Source: Fidelibacterota bacterium | GTDB taxonomy: Bacteria > Fidelibacterota > UBA8477 | Assembly (NCBI GenBank): GCA_021734045.1 | Contig: JAIPJR010000105.1 | Location: 1-6,865 of the forward strand | Direction of reading: 5' to 3' | Length of the DNA: 6,865 nucleotides | In this document: positions 1,560 through 6,850 of the stretch, one piece after another | Position numbering within the stretch: the first letter of the stretch is position 1 | Layout of the letters: every line of letters begins with the position of its first letter | The notes under the pieces: generated by a model | Told to the model about the DNA's origin: nothing | The model's input: the letters and a program-made list of their open reading frames with translations, nothing else | The model's database searches: none | Position numbers and translations under genes: made by a program

Positions 1560-2537
1560 CTAATCAGGTTTTGATTTGGGCAGGAGGGACTTCAGATCGC
1601 CCAACGCCGGTTTATCCCCGGCCAGCGGCGTGGTCGCTTCATTAAGCAGCACGCCCCTTCCGTTATACTTCCGTTCTACCACCACACCCGGTTTTTCATC
1701 GTAAGACCAGGTCTGCCATCCCTTGCTTCGCCGATTGCGTGTCAGAAATTCCTCCCGGATAAGACGCCCGCTTGCATCAAAGTCCTTAATCACCAATTCC
1801 TCGCTCTCTTCGCTGAAAGATTCGGAACGCGTGAGATGGTGGTCGTTAGGATCAAATTCATTGCGATAAAAGGCGATAAGTGTGCCGTTAGAGAGGTAAT
1901 GCTCTTCACTGCGGATGGTGTTAAAATTGGTGTACAGCGTAACCCAAAAATCACGTCGGTTTCCATCAGGCGTGTAGTAAACCACCTGTTTCTTGTCCAG
2001 CCGATTTGCCGGATCGTAGTACAATTCCGCGGTGCTTACGAGCTTGCGGCCCTCACCATAGGTTTCAATAAAAGCTGGCTGGCCCCGGGGATTCACATAG
2101 GTGATTTCCAATTTTTCATATAAGCCCTGAAAATCATAATAGGTCTCGTGCTTTTCCACCGGGCGCCCGTTTTTTAATATCCATTTCACAGCCGAGCGCA
2201 ATTTCCCCGCTTCATTAAAATAACGGTCCTTGCGCGCCAGCAGGGTTGTGTCTTCCCAGTTATATTCATACCGGGCGGTCACCTTCCGCTGCGGATTGTA
2301 GCGCCATACCTGGCGAATACGGCCGTCCTTGTCCTTTTTTACCGCGTAATAGCCACCGGTGGTGAGCTTGGGAGAGGTTAACGGCTTTTCGAATACCAGG
2401 GAGTTGGGATTACCCGTCTGAAACAAATCACTCCCTCGTGGTGCGCTGCAACCCGTGATCAATCCAATACCCAGAATCAAGACAAATACGAGCATTCTCC
2501 GTCTTTCAGAGCCGTTGGTATTGCCATTATAAAACAT
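1560..2537 (-). CDS. Putative lipoprotein with YD-like beta repeats, function unknown
   Basis: I do not recognise a named family. A hydrophobic stretch, MLVFVLILGIGLITGC, ends in a lipobox-like I-T-G-C followed by SAPRG, so the mature protein is probably lipid-anchored. The rest is rich in Tyr, Arg, Glu and Asp. Units of roughly 20-25 residues recur with a Y-[YF]-[DN]-x(2-4)-G-x-L flavour, for example YFNEAGKLRS, YYDFQGLYEK, YTPDGNRRDF, DFDASGRLIREE and KYNGRGVLLNE. This resembles YD/RHS-like or MORN-like beta-repeat surface proteins. The start is uncertain: the frame stays open to a TTG at 2573. The ATG at 2537 keeps the positive ERRR n-region in front of the hydrophobic core. The ATG at 2495 begins exactly at MLVFVL but loses those charges, and its GGAG lies only one base away. 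I chose 2537. The DJ-1-type gene follows 34 bases downstream. Confidence 0.75.
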   Translation of the reverse strand: MFYNGNTNGSERRRMLVFVLILGIGLITGCSAPRGSDLFQTGNPNSLVFEKPLTSPKLTTGGYYAVKKDKDGRIRQVWRYNPQRKVTARYEYNWEDTTLLARKDRYFNEAGKLRSAVKWILKNGRPVEKHETYYDFQGLYEKLEITYVNPRGQPAFIETYGEGRKLVSTAELYYDPANRLDKKQVVYYTPDGNRRDFWVTLYTNFNTIRSEEHYLSNGTLIAFYRNEFDPNDHHLTRSESFSEESEELVIKDFDASGRLIREEFLTRNRRSKGWQTWSYDEKPGVVVERKYNGRGVLLNEATTPLAGDKPALGDLKSLLPKSKPD

Positions 2538-2645
2538 GGAAATCAAAATGGCTAAGAAATGAATGGGACGCAAGCAGAATTGGATTTTCAGTGGCTGTTT
2601 TGATGAGAAAAAATAATGTGGTTCGGGAAAACAGGTCGGCGGGGA

Positions 2646-3101
2646 TTAAGACAAGCGCTTTTCGAACCACAGCTTGGCCTCACCCTTCTCCACAGTTGAT
2701 TTCACCAATGCATAGCCTGCCTTCCGGCCCAATGCCTGCATCTCGGGAAAGCGGTGAAAGGTGTTGAAGCCAATTGTCGTGAACCCGGCTGATCGCGCCC
2801 ATTCTTCCTGCATTTGCAGCATTCGGAAGGCGATTCCCCGGCGCCGGTATTGGGGCACCACGCCCCCCAGCCAGGAGTGAAAATGGCTCGGCCGGCTCCC
2901 GGCGTACGCCAGTTTGAAACCCACCGGGCGTTTCTCATGGCTGGCCACCAGTAACAGATTTGGTACAGCTTGGATCTGCTCCATTTTATCCGCTGTGACA
3001 ATGGTATCACCGAAAATCAACACATCCAGTTCGGTGACCCGCTCCAGCGTGACCGGTTCAGGCTGGATGAGAATTTCAGTGCCAGACATTGACACAGTCA
3101 T
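2646..3101 (-). CDS. GNAT-family N-acetyltransferase
   Basis: The 151-residue protein has the size and motifs of a single-domain GNAT acetyltransferase, which moves an acetyl group from acetyl-CoA to an amine. Acetyl-CoA-binding motif A is clear: GGVVPQYRRRGIAFRML (residues 79-95), with the R/Q-x-x-G-x-A pyrophosphate loop as RRRGIA. Upstream, LLLVASHEKRPVGFKLAY supplies the preceding beta strands. The end, FPEMQALGRKAGYALV, matches the usual final motif of the fold. The substrate cannot be read from sequence. No signal peptide is visible, so it is cytoplasmic. The first ATG (3101) is used; an alternative is the ATG at 3089, and neither has a good Shine-Dalgarno site. It lies 87 bases after the porin gene and more than 100 bases before the lipoprotein gene, so its transcription unit is unclear. 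Confidence 0.88.
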   Translation of the reverse strand: MTVSMSGTEILIQPEPVTLERVTELDVLIFGDTIVTADKMEQIQAVPNLLLVASHEKRPVGFKLAYAGSRPSHFHSWLGGVVPQYRRRGIAFRMLQMQEEWARSAGFTTIGFNTFHRFPEMQALGRKAGYALVKSTVEKGEAKLWFEKRLS

Positions 3102-3188: not shown

Positions 3189-4373
3189 TTAAAACGCCAG
3201 GTGCATCTGCAATGCCGCGAGCCGGAGGTCCGGCTCTGCCAGATAGTCCCAATACTGAAAATCGAGCTTCATCAGCGTTTGCCGATTCACGCGCCAGCCA
3301 AGCGCGCTTTCCATGCGGTTAAAATCGTAGCCCCATTCGTAGTTTCCGCCGCTGCCGGTGGCGTAAGGTGCAATTTTGCTATACCGCCACACGTCATACC
3401 GACCCGCCAGATAATACCCTGGCAGGAAATCCCAACGGCCTTCCACATACGCAGTCTGGACAGTCAATTTTTTTTCGAACACATAGGGGGTATCGAAATC
3501 CACCTGTGCGGCCTCTAAAAACCATTGCCAATGACCGGTAAGCCATTCACCGTGGATGCCGACTGTGGTTTGATTTTCCTGTGAATCCGCCGTGGGTGCA
3601 GCCGGCGCTGTACCGCTGAGGAGATAACCTCCGGCATCCGCGCTGGGGGTCATGAAGGGTCCCCGGGCGAATGATGCACCCAATCGCACACCCATGACCG
3701 GCAGGATACTGAATTTACCCATGACCTGATACCCGTCATTAAACCGGGCGCGGGGATTGCCCATACTGCCGGCGGTGATTGCGCCACTCACTTCCAGTCC
3801 CGGCCAGAAAAACAGTGCCTCCACCCCAATATCCCAGCAGGCATCATAGCCCAGCACCACACCCGAATGGTGATTCAATACCTCACCCTCCGGATTAATC
3901 AAGTCTTCATTTGTCACATACATATTGGGAGTGAGGCCGGTTTTATAATGCCAGAGTGCCGGTACACCAATGAGTGGATTCAGGTTAAAATAGGTGCTGC
4001 GCAGGCCATAATTTCCAAACGGCGAGGGAATCATTCCCGCTTTTAAATCCAGGTGGTTTGCAATGATATCTTGGACATAGACATAAGCACCATTCATGCG
4101 GACATCGGCTTCATTATCCAACAAAATCTCTGTATAAACACCGATATTTTCTGTCGCCTGCGTGCGGACGAAAAGACGCAGCCGCGTCAGATCAAAGGGA
4201 TCGTCCCCACGGAAATTGGTGTTCACCGGCGCGTGTTTATCCAATGCCGTTCCCGTGATGGCCAGGTCGCCGCTTATTTCCACCCGTCCCCAAGCGGTAC
4301 TCACCATCAGTATCACCAAGGTGAGAAGCGTGACTTTTATGCTTTGGCGCGTGTGGCCTTGTAGTAACATCAT
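3189..4373 (-). CDS. Porin-like outer-membrane beta-barrel protein
   Basis: The 394-residue protein begins with a signal peptide: a polar, positively charged start, a hydrophobic stretch of VTLLTLVILMVSTA, and a likely cut near AWG at residue 29. The mature part alternates polar and hydrophobic residues and is rich in aromatic and Gly residues. It includes KAGMIPSPFGNYGLRSTYFNLNP, the style of phosphate-selective porin O/P-like and related barrels. It ends in MHLAF, and the terminal Phe is the classic outer-membrane insertion signal read by BamA. The likely role is diffusion of a small solute across the outer membrane; the solute is unknown. The ATG overlaps the TGA of the kinase gene (ATGA at 4370-4373), a sign of translational coupling, and AAGGA upstream may help. 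It is the last gene of the three-gene operon. Confidence 0.88.
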   Translation of the reverse strand: MMLLQGHTRQSIKVTLLTLVILMVSTAWGRVEISGDLAITGTALDKHAPVNTNFRGDDPFDLTRLRLFVRTQATENIGVYTEILLDNEADVRMNGAYVYVQDIIANHLDLKAGMIPSPFGNYGLRSTYFNLNPLIGVPALWHYKTGLTPNMYVTNEDLINPEGEVLNHHSGVVLGYDACWDIGVEALFFWPGLEVSGAITAGSMGNPRARFNDGYQVMGKFSILPVMGVRLGASFARGPFMTPSADAGGYLLSGTAPAAPTADSQENQTTVGIHGEWLTGHWQWFLEAAQVDFDTPYVFEKKLTVQTAYVEGRWDFLPGYYLAGRYDVWRYSKIAPYATGSGGNYEWGYDFNRMESALGWRVNRQTLMKLDFQYWDYLAEPDLRLAALQMHLAF

Positions 4374-6163
4374 GGTTTTGGAATCCTTATGGAGAAGGTC
4401 GTGCCTTTTCCGGTTTCGGTTTCGAATGTCAATGCCCCCTGATGCTCCGCGATAATTTTTCTGGCAATGGCAAGTCCCAAACCGGTTCCGTGGGATTTAC
4501 CATGGGTTACGAAAGGTTCAAAAATTGTCTCCCGAATTGCTTCCGGAATGCCGTCTCCTGTATCCGATATGTGAATCAGTACTGCTTGCGCCGTCTCTTC
4601 GGTCTTGATGGTAATTTTCCCCGCTTCCCGGGGCTTCATGGCATCCATGGCATTGCGAATGAGATTGTCCAGAATCCGCCGCATCCGGTCCCGGTCAATG
4701 TACACGGGCACATCATTTTCCAGCTCCAGAATCAGCGATATTTCGGCATCATCCAGCACATGTTGAACCGGCTCCACCGATTCCCGGATAAAGCGATGTA
4801 GCGAAACCATCTGCTGGTTGAGACGATATTCACCACGGGAAAAATCCAGCAGTTCATTAATCATACCCAACATCCGATTAATCTCGCGGTCAATGACCTG
4901 ATGAAATTCAGCCAGTTTTTCCGGTGTCTGTTCACCCATGGTCATCATCTGGCTATAGAGCGAAATCACCGACATGGGCTGCTTGAAGTCATGGATAATG
5001 GCATTGGCCATGCGTCCCACCAATGAAAGCCGCTCGTTGGTAATCAGCTCCTTTTGCGCTTTGTCCAGCGAAACCCGCATTTCTTCAAACGCTGTGGCTA
5101 ACACACCGATTTCGTCGCGTCCCTGAACCGTCACCGGCTGGGATAAATCACCGGAACCCACCACTCGGGCATGCGCCACCAGCGTTTCTACCGGACGCAT
5201 AATGCTACGGGAGAGGAAATAATTCAGCACCATGGCTAAACTCAATGCACCCAGACCGATGAGAATGAGCAGCCAGCGAGTCTCCACCAATTGGGCATAA
5301 GCCTGATCTTCAGACCGGAAAATTAGAAAATTCCCCAGTTTATTCCCAAGGATGCCATGAATTGGAACCAGGATTCCCCGGTACCGCTCCTCTGAAGTGG
5401 TAAAAGTGAACAGATCACTCTCTTGAAGCACGGGAATGGTTAGGTCTGTTGAACGATGGGGGAGATTCTCGATCTGTTTTCGAACCGCCTGTAAAATCTG
5501 TGCCGTGGTGGCCTTATCAGCCGTTGAATCCAGGGTGGTGGCAATAACAGAATCAGATTTCAAAATAGCAAATTGGGAGGAACTCAGGGGCACAAATGCC
5601 TGCATATAGGGCCGCTGGATATGATTGCCCAGGACCAGAATTCCCACCAAATGATTAGCCAGTGTAATGGGTACGCAGGCAACTTCGTATAATTGTCCAC
5701 CCACATCCCAGAAGTCTGGTGAATCGAACAGATTCATGGCATCCTGTACCGCCGGTTCATCCCGGTAGGCTTTATCTCCCGCGGCAATCGGTCCCCAGAA
5801 GGTAACCAGCTCGGCCTCGTGGGTGAGAATGACGATTAAATCCTCATTTCGAATTTGTTGAATATCCGTGAGTATGTCGTGAATCGTCTCCGGATCGCCG
5901 GTGGACACGCTGCCCTTCAGTCGGGTTTCGTGGGACAGCTCGACAGCGTGATCCATAAGAGCAGTAAACCGCGTCTCCCGAAAATGCTCCAGCACCCGTG
6001 CGGTCTGAAAAAGCGAGTGGGTGAGATTGGTGGAAATCTCTCGTTTGAACCGGGCATTTACCAAAATGATGGTGAGACCGATGACCAGCACCATCAGACC
6101 GGCGGTAAGCACGAAAATTTTATCGCGCAGACTTTCCCGGGGGATGAGGAGTCGTTTTGGCAT
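4370..6163 (-). CDS. Membrane sensor histidine kinase (Cache-like sensor, HAMP, HisKA, HATPase)
   Basis: The 597-residue protein has a first membrane helix at about residues 15-37 and a periplasmic region of about 258 residues. That region holds DLIVILTHEAELVTFWG and YEVACVPITLANHLVGILVLG blocks typical of double-Cache-like sensor domains. A second helix spans about 297-317, and a HAMP linker about 318-371 (IMRPVETLVAHARVVGSGDLSQP). The dimerisation helix carries the phospho-acceptor His391 in IIHDFKQP. The ATPase domain is complete: N box DNLIRNAMDAM (499-509), G1 DTGDGIP (534-540), F box FEPFVTHGKSHG and G2 GTGLGLA (559-565). It should autophosphorylate in response to a periplasmic cue; the cue is unknown. 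No response regulator is visible in the window. It starts 3 bases after the cupredoxin gene and overlaps the porin start by 4 bases, so the three genes are almost certainly one transcript. Confidence 0.93.
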   Translation of the reverse strand: MPKRLLIPRESLRDKIFVLTAGLMVLVIGLTIILVNARFKREISTNLTHSLFQTARVLEHFRETRFTALMDHAVELSHETRLKGSVSTGDPETIHDILTDIQQIRNEDLIVILTHEAELVTFWGPIAAGDKAYRDEPAVQDAMNLFDSPDFWDVGGQLYEVACVPITLANHLVGILVLGNHIQRPYMQAFVPLSSSQFAILKSDSVIATTLDSTADKATTAQILQAVRKQIENLPHRSTDLTIPVLQESDLFTFTTSEERYRGILVPIHGILGNKLGNFLIFRSEDQAYAQLVETRWLLILIGLGALSLAMVLNYFLSRSIMRPVETLVAHARVVGSGDLSQPVTVQGRDEIGVLATAFEEMRVSLDKAQKELITNERLSLVGRMANAIIHDFKQPMSVISLYSQMMTMGEQTPEKLAEFHQVIDREINRMLGMINELLDFSRGEYRLNQQMVSLHRFIRESVEPVQHVLDDAEISLILELENDVPVYIDRDRMRRILDNLIRNAMDAMKPREAGKITIKTEETAQAVLIHISDTGDGIPEAIRETIFEPFVTHGKSHGTGLGLAIARKIIAEHQGALTFETETGKGTTFSIRIPKP

Positions 6164-6166
6164 GAA

Positions 6167-6850
6167 TCAGCGACCGATTGACAGGTTCAGGTCCGTATTA
6201 TTGGCTTGGGTCAGGTCCACCGGAACGATGGTCTCGCCAGCCAGATCGTGCCAGACATATAAATCATATTTACCAGGCGGAATGCCGGAGAGTTCAAAAT
6301 TTCCTGCCCCATCCGGCCGGGTATAAACCGGCGTGTCTGTGACATAAACAATAGCGTTCATCTCGGCATGAATATCACAAAAAACCTTTACCACACCTGG
6401 TCTGTCAAACATGACCTGGCGTGATTCTCCTTCCGGAAACCGGCCCAGGTCGAACCGTTTGGTGGGGGAGAGGGAAAAAATATTGTGGAAAACATCATCA
6501 CGGTTTGGAAAACTCACCACCGACCCAACCGGAATAACCAGCATGTGGGGAATAAGCTGCATGTTGCGCTGTTCGATGGTAAACGTGTCAGGTACAAGGG
6601 GAATGGCATCAAAAGCAGGTTGGCTGGGGATAAACAGCACCACTTCAGTGATTTCGTTGGGCTTCAGTTTGGGTGCGGACGGTTTGGCGTAGCGTGTACG
6701 GGCGTAAGGACTCAGGCTGTGAAGATTACGCTCCACGCTTACCTGTAGGCTGATGTGCCCGGAAATCTTCCGCATTTCCGGTTGTGCCCATCCCTGAGTC
6801 AATCCTATAAGAAGTAACAATATGGTTGTACGCATCGTTTTTTGAATCAT
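6167..6850 (-). CDS. Secreted amicyanin-like cupredoxin with carboxypeptidase-regulatory-like tail
   Basis: The 227-residue protein has a signal peptide (hydrophobic TTILLLLIGLTQG, likely cut near A22/Q23), so it is periplasmic. The central cupredoxin region, about 100-170, shows the blue-copper ligand set: His122 in DVFHNIFS, then Cys158, His161 and Met164 in VFCDIHAEM. The C-x2-H-x2-M spacing is that of amicyanin, and relatives are often labelled methylamine utilization proteins. Residues about 174-200 (YTRPDGAGNFELSGIPPGKYDLYVWHD) form a carboxypeptidase-regulatory-like beta-sandwich piece. No methylamine dehydrogenase gene is in view, so I do not infer methylamine growth. It may carry electrons or bind copper. 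The kinase gene follows after 3 bases. The ATG at 6850 has AGGA at the window edge; the ATG at 6835 is an alternative. The promoter lies outside the window. Confidence 0.88.
   Translation of the reverse strand: MIQKTMRTTILLLLIGLTQGWAQPEMRKISGHISLQVSVERNLHSLSPYARTRYAKPSAPKLKPNEITEVVLFIPSQPAFDAIPLVPDTFTIEQRNMQLIPHMLVIPVGSVVSFPNRDDVFHNIFSLSPTKRFDLGRFPEGESRQVMFDRPGVVKVFCDIHAEMNAIVYVTDTPVYTRPDGAGNFELSGIPPGKYDLYVWHDLAGETIVPVDLTQANNTDLNLSIGR

Follow-up and report, generated by a model that had tools for sequence, protein, structure and literature searches.

We analyzed a stretch of 6,865 nt (hereafter the window), which is the entire contig C88 of a Marinimicrobia metagenome-assembled genome (MAG; 2.54 Mb, 92% complete) and carries on its minus strand the genes for a secreted cupredoxin (227 amino acids, 6167..6850), a membrane histidine kinase (597 amino acids, 4370..6163) and an outer-membrane porin (394 amino acids, 3189..4373). 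With moderate confidence, we read these three genes as coding for a cupredoxin-coupled transmembrane receptor, in which the copper protein would report to the Cache domain of the kinase and which would possess a porin of its own. The cupredoxin is thus probably the input partner of the sensor. We committed to this reading because cupredoxin and sensor are paired irrespective of the output, because the metal ligands are confined to the cupredoxin and because the sensor domain matches the fold of LuxQ. The preliminary description of the window had suggested that the copper protein either reports a metal or redox state to the kinase or supports uptake through the porin. The first branch is now the better supported one, whereas the second is not supported.

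Cupredoxin, sensor and porin form a real recurring unit, the linkage of which goes beyond chance. In a sensor-side survey of three phyla, a cupredoxin adjoins a window-type double-Cache sensor in 57 out of 58 checkable loci. When the sensor domain was used to search 245 Marinimicrobia genomes, a cupredoxin was found beside all full-length matches that could be checked (11/11), and the sensors of a Balneolia and an Acidobacteriae relative, employed as queries, led to an adjacent cupredoxin in 29/29 loci and in 17/18 checkable loci, respectively. When the cupredoxin served as query in Gammaproteobacteria, a sensor was located next to 23 of 30, and a scan of 84,980 genomes, which is biased toward close relatives of the query, yielded 64 readable cupredoxin loci with a sensor immediately downstream in 50, 37 of which carry a homologous barrel directly after the sensor. 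At least nine phyla possess the cupredoxin-sensor pair, in most cases along with a porin. Many of the source sequences are MAGs and open reading frames (ORFs) were called mechanically, so that a few absences may be artefacts; in L082, the cupredoxin had seemed to be missing solely because of the ORF filter. It had been considered beforehand that the linkage would be incidental if homologues were rarely adjacent outside close relatives; our neighbourhood survey showed that it holds across many phyla, and incidental linkage was rejected on the grounds of this persistent adjacency.

The genes are also closely spaced. Only three bases (6164..6166, minus strand) separate the cupredoxin stop from the kinase start, and kinase and porin overlap by the four bases ATGA (4370..4373, minus strand), which confirms the coordinates and spacing described before. 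Both the 3-base gap and the 4-base overlap are kept in a second species of the genus (Candidatus Marinimicrobia CG1_02_48_14; locus L030, the same as L089). Across phyla, the distance between cupredoxin and sensor has a median of +2 bases (n=36) and that between sensor and barrel a median of -4 bases (n=20), values typical for coupled genes. The earlier assumption of a single transcript for the three genes is very likely correct.

While the pair is conserved, the output of the sensor is not. At least seven output types were identified with Pfam behind the same HAMP-linked periplasmic domain, namely HisKA kinases in Marinimicrobia, Gemmatimonadota, Acidobacteriota and Eisenbacteria, an HWE-type kinase in Balneolota, an Hpt/CheA-like kinase in Bdellovibrionota, GGDEF-EAL proteins in beta-, alpha- and gammaproteobacteria, adenylate/guanylate cyclases in Balneolota, Verrucomicrobiota and some gammaproteobacteria, HD-GYP proteins in Acidobacteriota, and serine/threonine (Ser/Thr) protein kinases in gammaproteobacteria and, in a more diverged form, in Myxococcota. 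The comparison of the classes by hhalign was restricted to the region between the two transmembrane (TM) helices. In this region, the window-type sensor aligns end-to-end with the cyclases (99.7% probability, 245 columns), the GGDEF-EAL proteins (99.3%), the HWE kinase (98.8%), the HD-GYP proteins (98.4%), the gammaproteobacterial Ser/Thr kinases (98.3%) and the CheA-like kinase (97.9%), while three control kinases remained below 1%. The sensors are hence homologous and their outputs swapped. In two Balneolia genomes, an HWE kinase takes the place of the relatives' cyclase, and the sensor regions of both are 47% identical over 278 columns; judged from this similarity, the swap looks recent. 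The cupredoxin tree requires at least 12 output changes. The membrane sensor kinase of the preliminary description thus applies to the window, where the output is indeed a HisKA kinase, but the unit as such is not confined to kinases, which represent one of at least seven outputs.

These swaps bear on the question whether the sensor might control only its own operon, with the cupredoxin as an ordinary electron carrier or the porin as a substrate channel and no direct contact between cupredoxin and sensor. Regulators are often co-transcribed with transport and redox genes, rows of barrel, cupredoxin and cytochrome genes exist that lack a sensor, and distant cupredoxins are located in respiratory clusters, all of which would fit such a regulated operon. 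Since some of the outputs make a second messenger or phosphorylate proteins, and are thus poor local regulators, their pairing with the cupredoxin would be unexpected if the sensor only regulated its neighbours, whereas a cupredoxin that acts as the input should be paired with the sensor under any type of output. In addition, most kinase versions are missing an adjacent response regulator, and the sensor domain hardly ever occurs without a cupredoxin. We therefore favour the cupredoxin as input, because it stays paired with the sensor across changes of the output domain and even of the porin family, and regard control of the own operon only as improbable. In its widest form, the proposal would be that of a phylum-spanning receptor class, in which a secreted type-1 copper protein signals through its redox state to a Cache domain with at least seven outputs, and which possesses a dedicated pore; this extension is tentative, and we would call it possible rather than probable.

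Electron transfer is the function for which cupredoxins are chiefly known, and a Cache domain is commonly taken to bind small ligands directly. The cupredoxin of the window contains the ligands H122, C158, H161 and M164 in the usual type-1 order, with a short C-x2-H-x2-M loop, followed by a C-terminal carboxypeptidase-regulatory-like domain. All four ligands are invariant in 71/71 sensor-linked cupredoxins. The Pfam matches of the window protein to Copper-bind (E-value 0.0022; 18.8 bits, under the curated cut-off of 21.2) and to CarboxypepD_reg (E-value 2.3e-5) both lie under the curated cut-offs, whereas the relative L137 exceeds that of Copper-bind with 23.9 bits. Based on its ligand set, the first gene product is a predicted type-1 cupredoxin that would bind copper, and the secreted type-1-copper-like protein recognized earlier holds in spite of the low Pfam scores. 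The product names that databases give to relatives commonly read methylamine utilization protein (MauL-like). A role in methylamine utilization appears scarcely credible to us, as NCBIfam returned no family match for the window cupredoxin and the annotated neighbourhoods that we read are free of methylamine genes; a search for PF06433 (methylamine dehydrogenase) gave no match in the MAG, nor in any control genome. More distant cupredoxins (~30% identity) were observed in Marinimicrobia (L034-L048), where they are encoded in respiratory clusters alongside multihaem cytochromes and oxidase-like subunits.

The kinase consists of TM1, a periplasmic double-Cache region of ~260 residues, TM2, HAMP, HisKA and HATPase_c. 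Its Pfam matches to dCache_3 (29.4 bits versus a cut-off of 25.7), HAMP, HisKA and HATPase_c are all above cut-off, and its catalytic boxes are intact (H box, H391; N box, N504; G boxes, D534/G536/G538 and G559-L564). A model of residues 1-370 built from 33 sequences (predicted local distance difference test, pLDDT, 86.5) displays two alpha/beta Cache modules arranged on a long helix, which lies between the two TM helices. Compared to solved double-Cache domains, it reaches Z scores of ~16, with DctB, CitA, LuxQ and the CHASE4 domain of PA2072 (Z 14.3) among the matches. LuxQ aligns over 200/217 residues with a root-mean-square deviation of 3.2 (Z 16.3), and the LuxP-LuxQ complexes 2hj9 and 1zhh are also among the structural matches. 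The alignment of the 33 periplasmic sensor sequences contains no conserved metal ligand, as H, C or M never exceed 36% in any column, and a conserved metal site in the sensor domain was rejected for this reason. Since the ligands are present in 71/71 cupredoxins and none is conserved in the sensor, we place the copper or cofactor site in the partner protein.

According to the main rival explanation, the unit answers to the copper level instead of the redox state, and the cupredoxin presents copper to the sensor as a reporter or chaperone. An invariant copper site would suit this function, and in PA14_37690, a relative in Cache/CHASE4 fold, the periplasmic domain itself binds copper at a ratio of 1:1 (PMC13277305). 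The sensor domain of the unit, in contrast, lacks a conserved metal-ligand column, no copper efflux genes were seen beside the loci that we read, and the genes next to the unit in relatives code for redox or gas-binding proteins. We thus consider copper sensing unlikely, and return to the cupredoxin-coupled receptor.

In this receptor, the secreted cupredoxin would hold the metal cofactor and act as the periplasmic input partner of the double-Cache domain of the kinase, comparable to LuxP for LuxQ. LuxP-LuxQ is the autoinducer-2 receptor of Vibrio, in which LuxQ is gated by the separate periplasmic protein LuxP, and shares with the unit a periplasmic partner protein and a double-Cache sensor kinase. 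A dedicated periplasmic protein encoded with the sensor is likewise found here, as the adjacency in 57/58 loci illustrates, and by analogy to LuxPQ we infer that partner and sensor bind directly. LuxP differs in adopting the fold of sugar-binding proteins rather than that of a cupredoxin, LuxQ is a hybrid kinase and LuxPQ comes without a porin; swapping of outputs is not known for LuxQ. Docking would respond to a change at the copper site, most likely in its redox state and alternatively in copper loading or in a bound small oxidant such as nitric oxide (NO), and would thereby set the kinase activity. The window kinase has no response regulator gene adjacent to it. Its signal would go to a response regulator encoded elsewhere, probably an NtrC-type one; the genome codes for ~10 strong sigma-54 activators as candidate partners. 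In other lineages, the same input module would drive cyclic-di-GMP, cyclic-nucleotide or Ser/Thr-kinase outputs.

The third gene product possesses a signal peptide and a C-terminal Phe and was confidently modelled as a 16-strand barrel (pLDDT 83.7; predicted template modelling score 0.81), in agreement with the outer-membrane barrel initially proposed. A long segment (residues 117-179) between strands 5 and 6 corresponds to a long inward-type loop 3. The model is nearest to OprP/OprO (Z 25.9/25.8), with general porins within ~2.5 Z, hence we claim no substrate. Pfam contains no family for this porin, and the sole trace in the Pfam and NCBIfam searches is the LbtU porin (E-value 0.0045), far below cut-off. 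Among the 245 Marinimicrobia genomes, 7/7 full-length porin matches sit in the cassette, to which the porin is dedicated in this phylum. It would serve as the outer-membrane channel of the unit and would probably let in the reactant of the copper protein. Elsewhere the barrel is replaced (DUF3034, BBP2-like) or absent, changes and losses being seen in Pseudomonadota; in some lineages no porin adjoins the cupredoxin-sensor pair, in others cupredoxin, porin and cytochromes occur without a sensor. The usual presence of a barrel (37/50 sensor loci) might also speak for envelope sensing, in which a complex of barrel and cupredoxin, linked to the outer membrane, would inform the sensor about barrel assembly or envelope damage. 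A precedent is given by DbfQ-DbfS, where a periplasmic protein ties membrane stress to a kinase (PMC12714742). Envelope sensing would have no need for a strictly conserved copper site, and in Pseudomonadota the barrel is of a different family or lacking, which renders this explanation very improbable.

As the cue of the receptor, we favour the redox state of the copper site, with copper level or a bound gas less likely, because the proteins associated with the unit in relatives take part in redox reactions or bind gases. A variant cassette (L033 2530-8597, G029) comprises a cupredoxin, an outer-membrane barrel with a single CxxCH, a kinase with a periplasmic CVDCH and an NtrC-type regulator; its sensor resembles haem-Cache sensors. 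Three cupredoxins (L085, L087, L088) are fused to an N-terminal CxxCH domain, and a group 1 truncated haemoglobin is part of the units of Caballeronia (betaproteobacterial) and Novosphingobium (alphaproteobacterial). In L092, L101 and L114, two CCP/MauG-like dihaem cytochromes, a barrel and a cupredoxin stand in a row without a sensor, so that the barrel-cupredoxin pair also occurs as a redox-looking unit.

Several observations weigh against the cupredoxin-coupled receptor. The redox evidence comes from the neighbouring genes of relatives and none of it from this window, and the matches of the CxxCH domains fused to cupredoxins with cytochrome c' are below the Pfam cut-off. The match to LuxQ is one of fold only, and DctB and CitA, both direct binders of small ligands, score equally high. 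Myxobacterial-type Ser/Thr-kinase sensors do not match the window-type sensor (hhalign 0.15%), and some cupredoxins of the family have no adjoining sensor. Finally, the distances of cupredoxins and sensors are correlated (r 0.79; shuffled maximum 0.09), which speaks for the receptor, but this correlation in part reflects shared ancestry and drops to r 0.36 for distant pairs.

Several characterized systems resemble the unit in part. CusS/CopS are likewise periplasm-facing kinases with a copper theme. They bind the metal directly and are encoded with a response regulator and copper-handling genes, neither of which was seen in the window unit. DbfQ of Vibrio cholerae is a small periplasmic protein encoded beside the kinase DbfS, the activity of which it sets by binding to the sensory domain; this unit lacks a porin, and a cupredoxin is not mentioned (PMC12714742). 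IsmP/PA2072 and PA14_37690 are CHASE4 GGDEF-EAL proteins that share the Cache/CHASE4 fold, metal-linked signalling and, with the proteobacterial cassettes, the cyclic-di-GMP output (PMC10904736, PMC13277305). They differ in that the sensor domain itself binds the metal, and a cupredoxin partner is not mentioned. The Cache subfamily with covalent haem (sCache_heme) senses NO and shares the use of a redox cofactor for periplasmic sensing and several alternative outputs (PMC12889525), as well as the periplasmic CxxCH of the L033 sensor. Its haem is held inside the Cache domain rather than copper in a partner, and the window sensor has no CxxCH.

No description of a cupredoxin-sensor unit was found in the searchable literature, which leaves most subscription journals outside and is thus weak evidence for novelty; within this coverage, the result agrees with the earlier remark that no described system of exactly this composition was known. 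Receptors gated by a partner protein are already known, and the cupredoxin version of this arrangement is new as far as we found. If our reading is true, the conserved cupredoxin-Cache pair would provide bacteria with a general route by which a redox or metal cue in the periplasm reaches kinases, cyclic-di-GMP enzymes, nucleotide cyclases and Ser/Thr kinases. It would assign a concrete function to many entries named methylamine utilization protein, as well as to orphan sensors in poorly cultured phyla, and is directly testable in culturable groups with relatives of the unit (Caballeronia, Comamonas, Balneola).

Some cassettes deviate from the common form. A divergent type of cupredoxin-cyclase cassette was seen in several Balneolia genomes (L156, L173-L182), five of which possess the first type as well. 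Two probable cassette remnants occur in Marinimicrobia, one with the sensor joined to the C-terminus of the barrel at a contig end (L084 7188-7985, G033) and one with a barrel piece of 90 residues (L220, G231). In a Longimicrobiales MAG, kinase and barrel form one odd ORF of 972 amino acids (L093 8739-11657), probably owing to a lost stop or a sequence error.

In the window itself, only 15 bases lie between the cupredoxin ATG and the contig end, so that the cupredoxin is the first gene of the operon only as far as the contig reaches. Promoter-like and terminator-like sites are not more frequent in the window than in shuffled sequence, and the GC content along it is even, giving no sign of a recent import of the operon. 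Downstream of the porin and on the same strand follow a GNAT acetyltransferase gene (2646..3101), which among the relatives adjoins the unit in the sister species only, and a lipoprotein-like gene (1560..2573). Both lie beside the unit in this genus and are absent there in the more distant relatives that we read; the acetyltransferase gene is possibly the tail of the operon, outside the conserved unit. The contig begins on the plus strand within a C-terminal fragment of an IS3-type transposase (2-100; Pfam rve_2, E-value 5.6e-6). Three copies of a 33-nt direct repeat with the core CGCGCAGGGACGCAGAGTCGCAGAGAAT (327-359, 388-420 and 911-943) flank a GxxExxY gene (419-871, TIGR04256).

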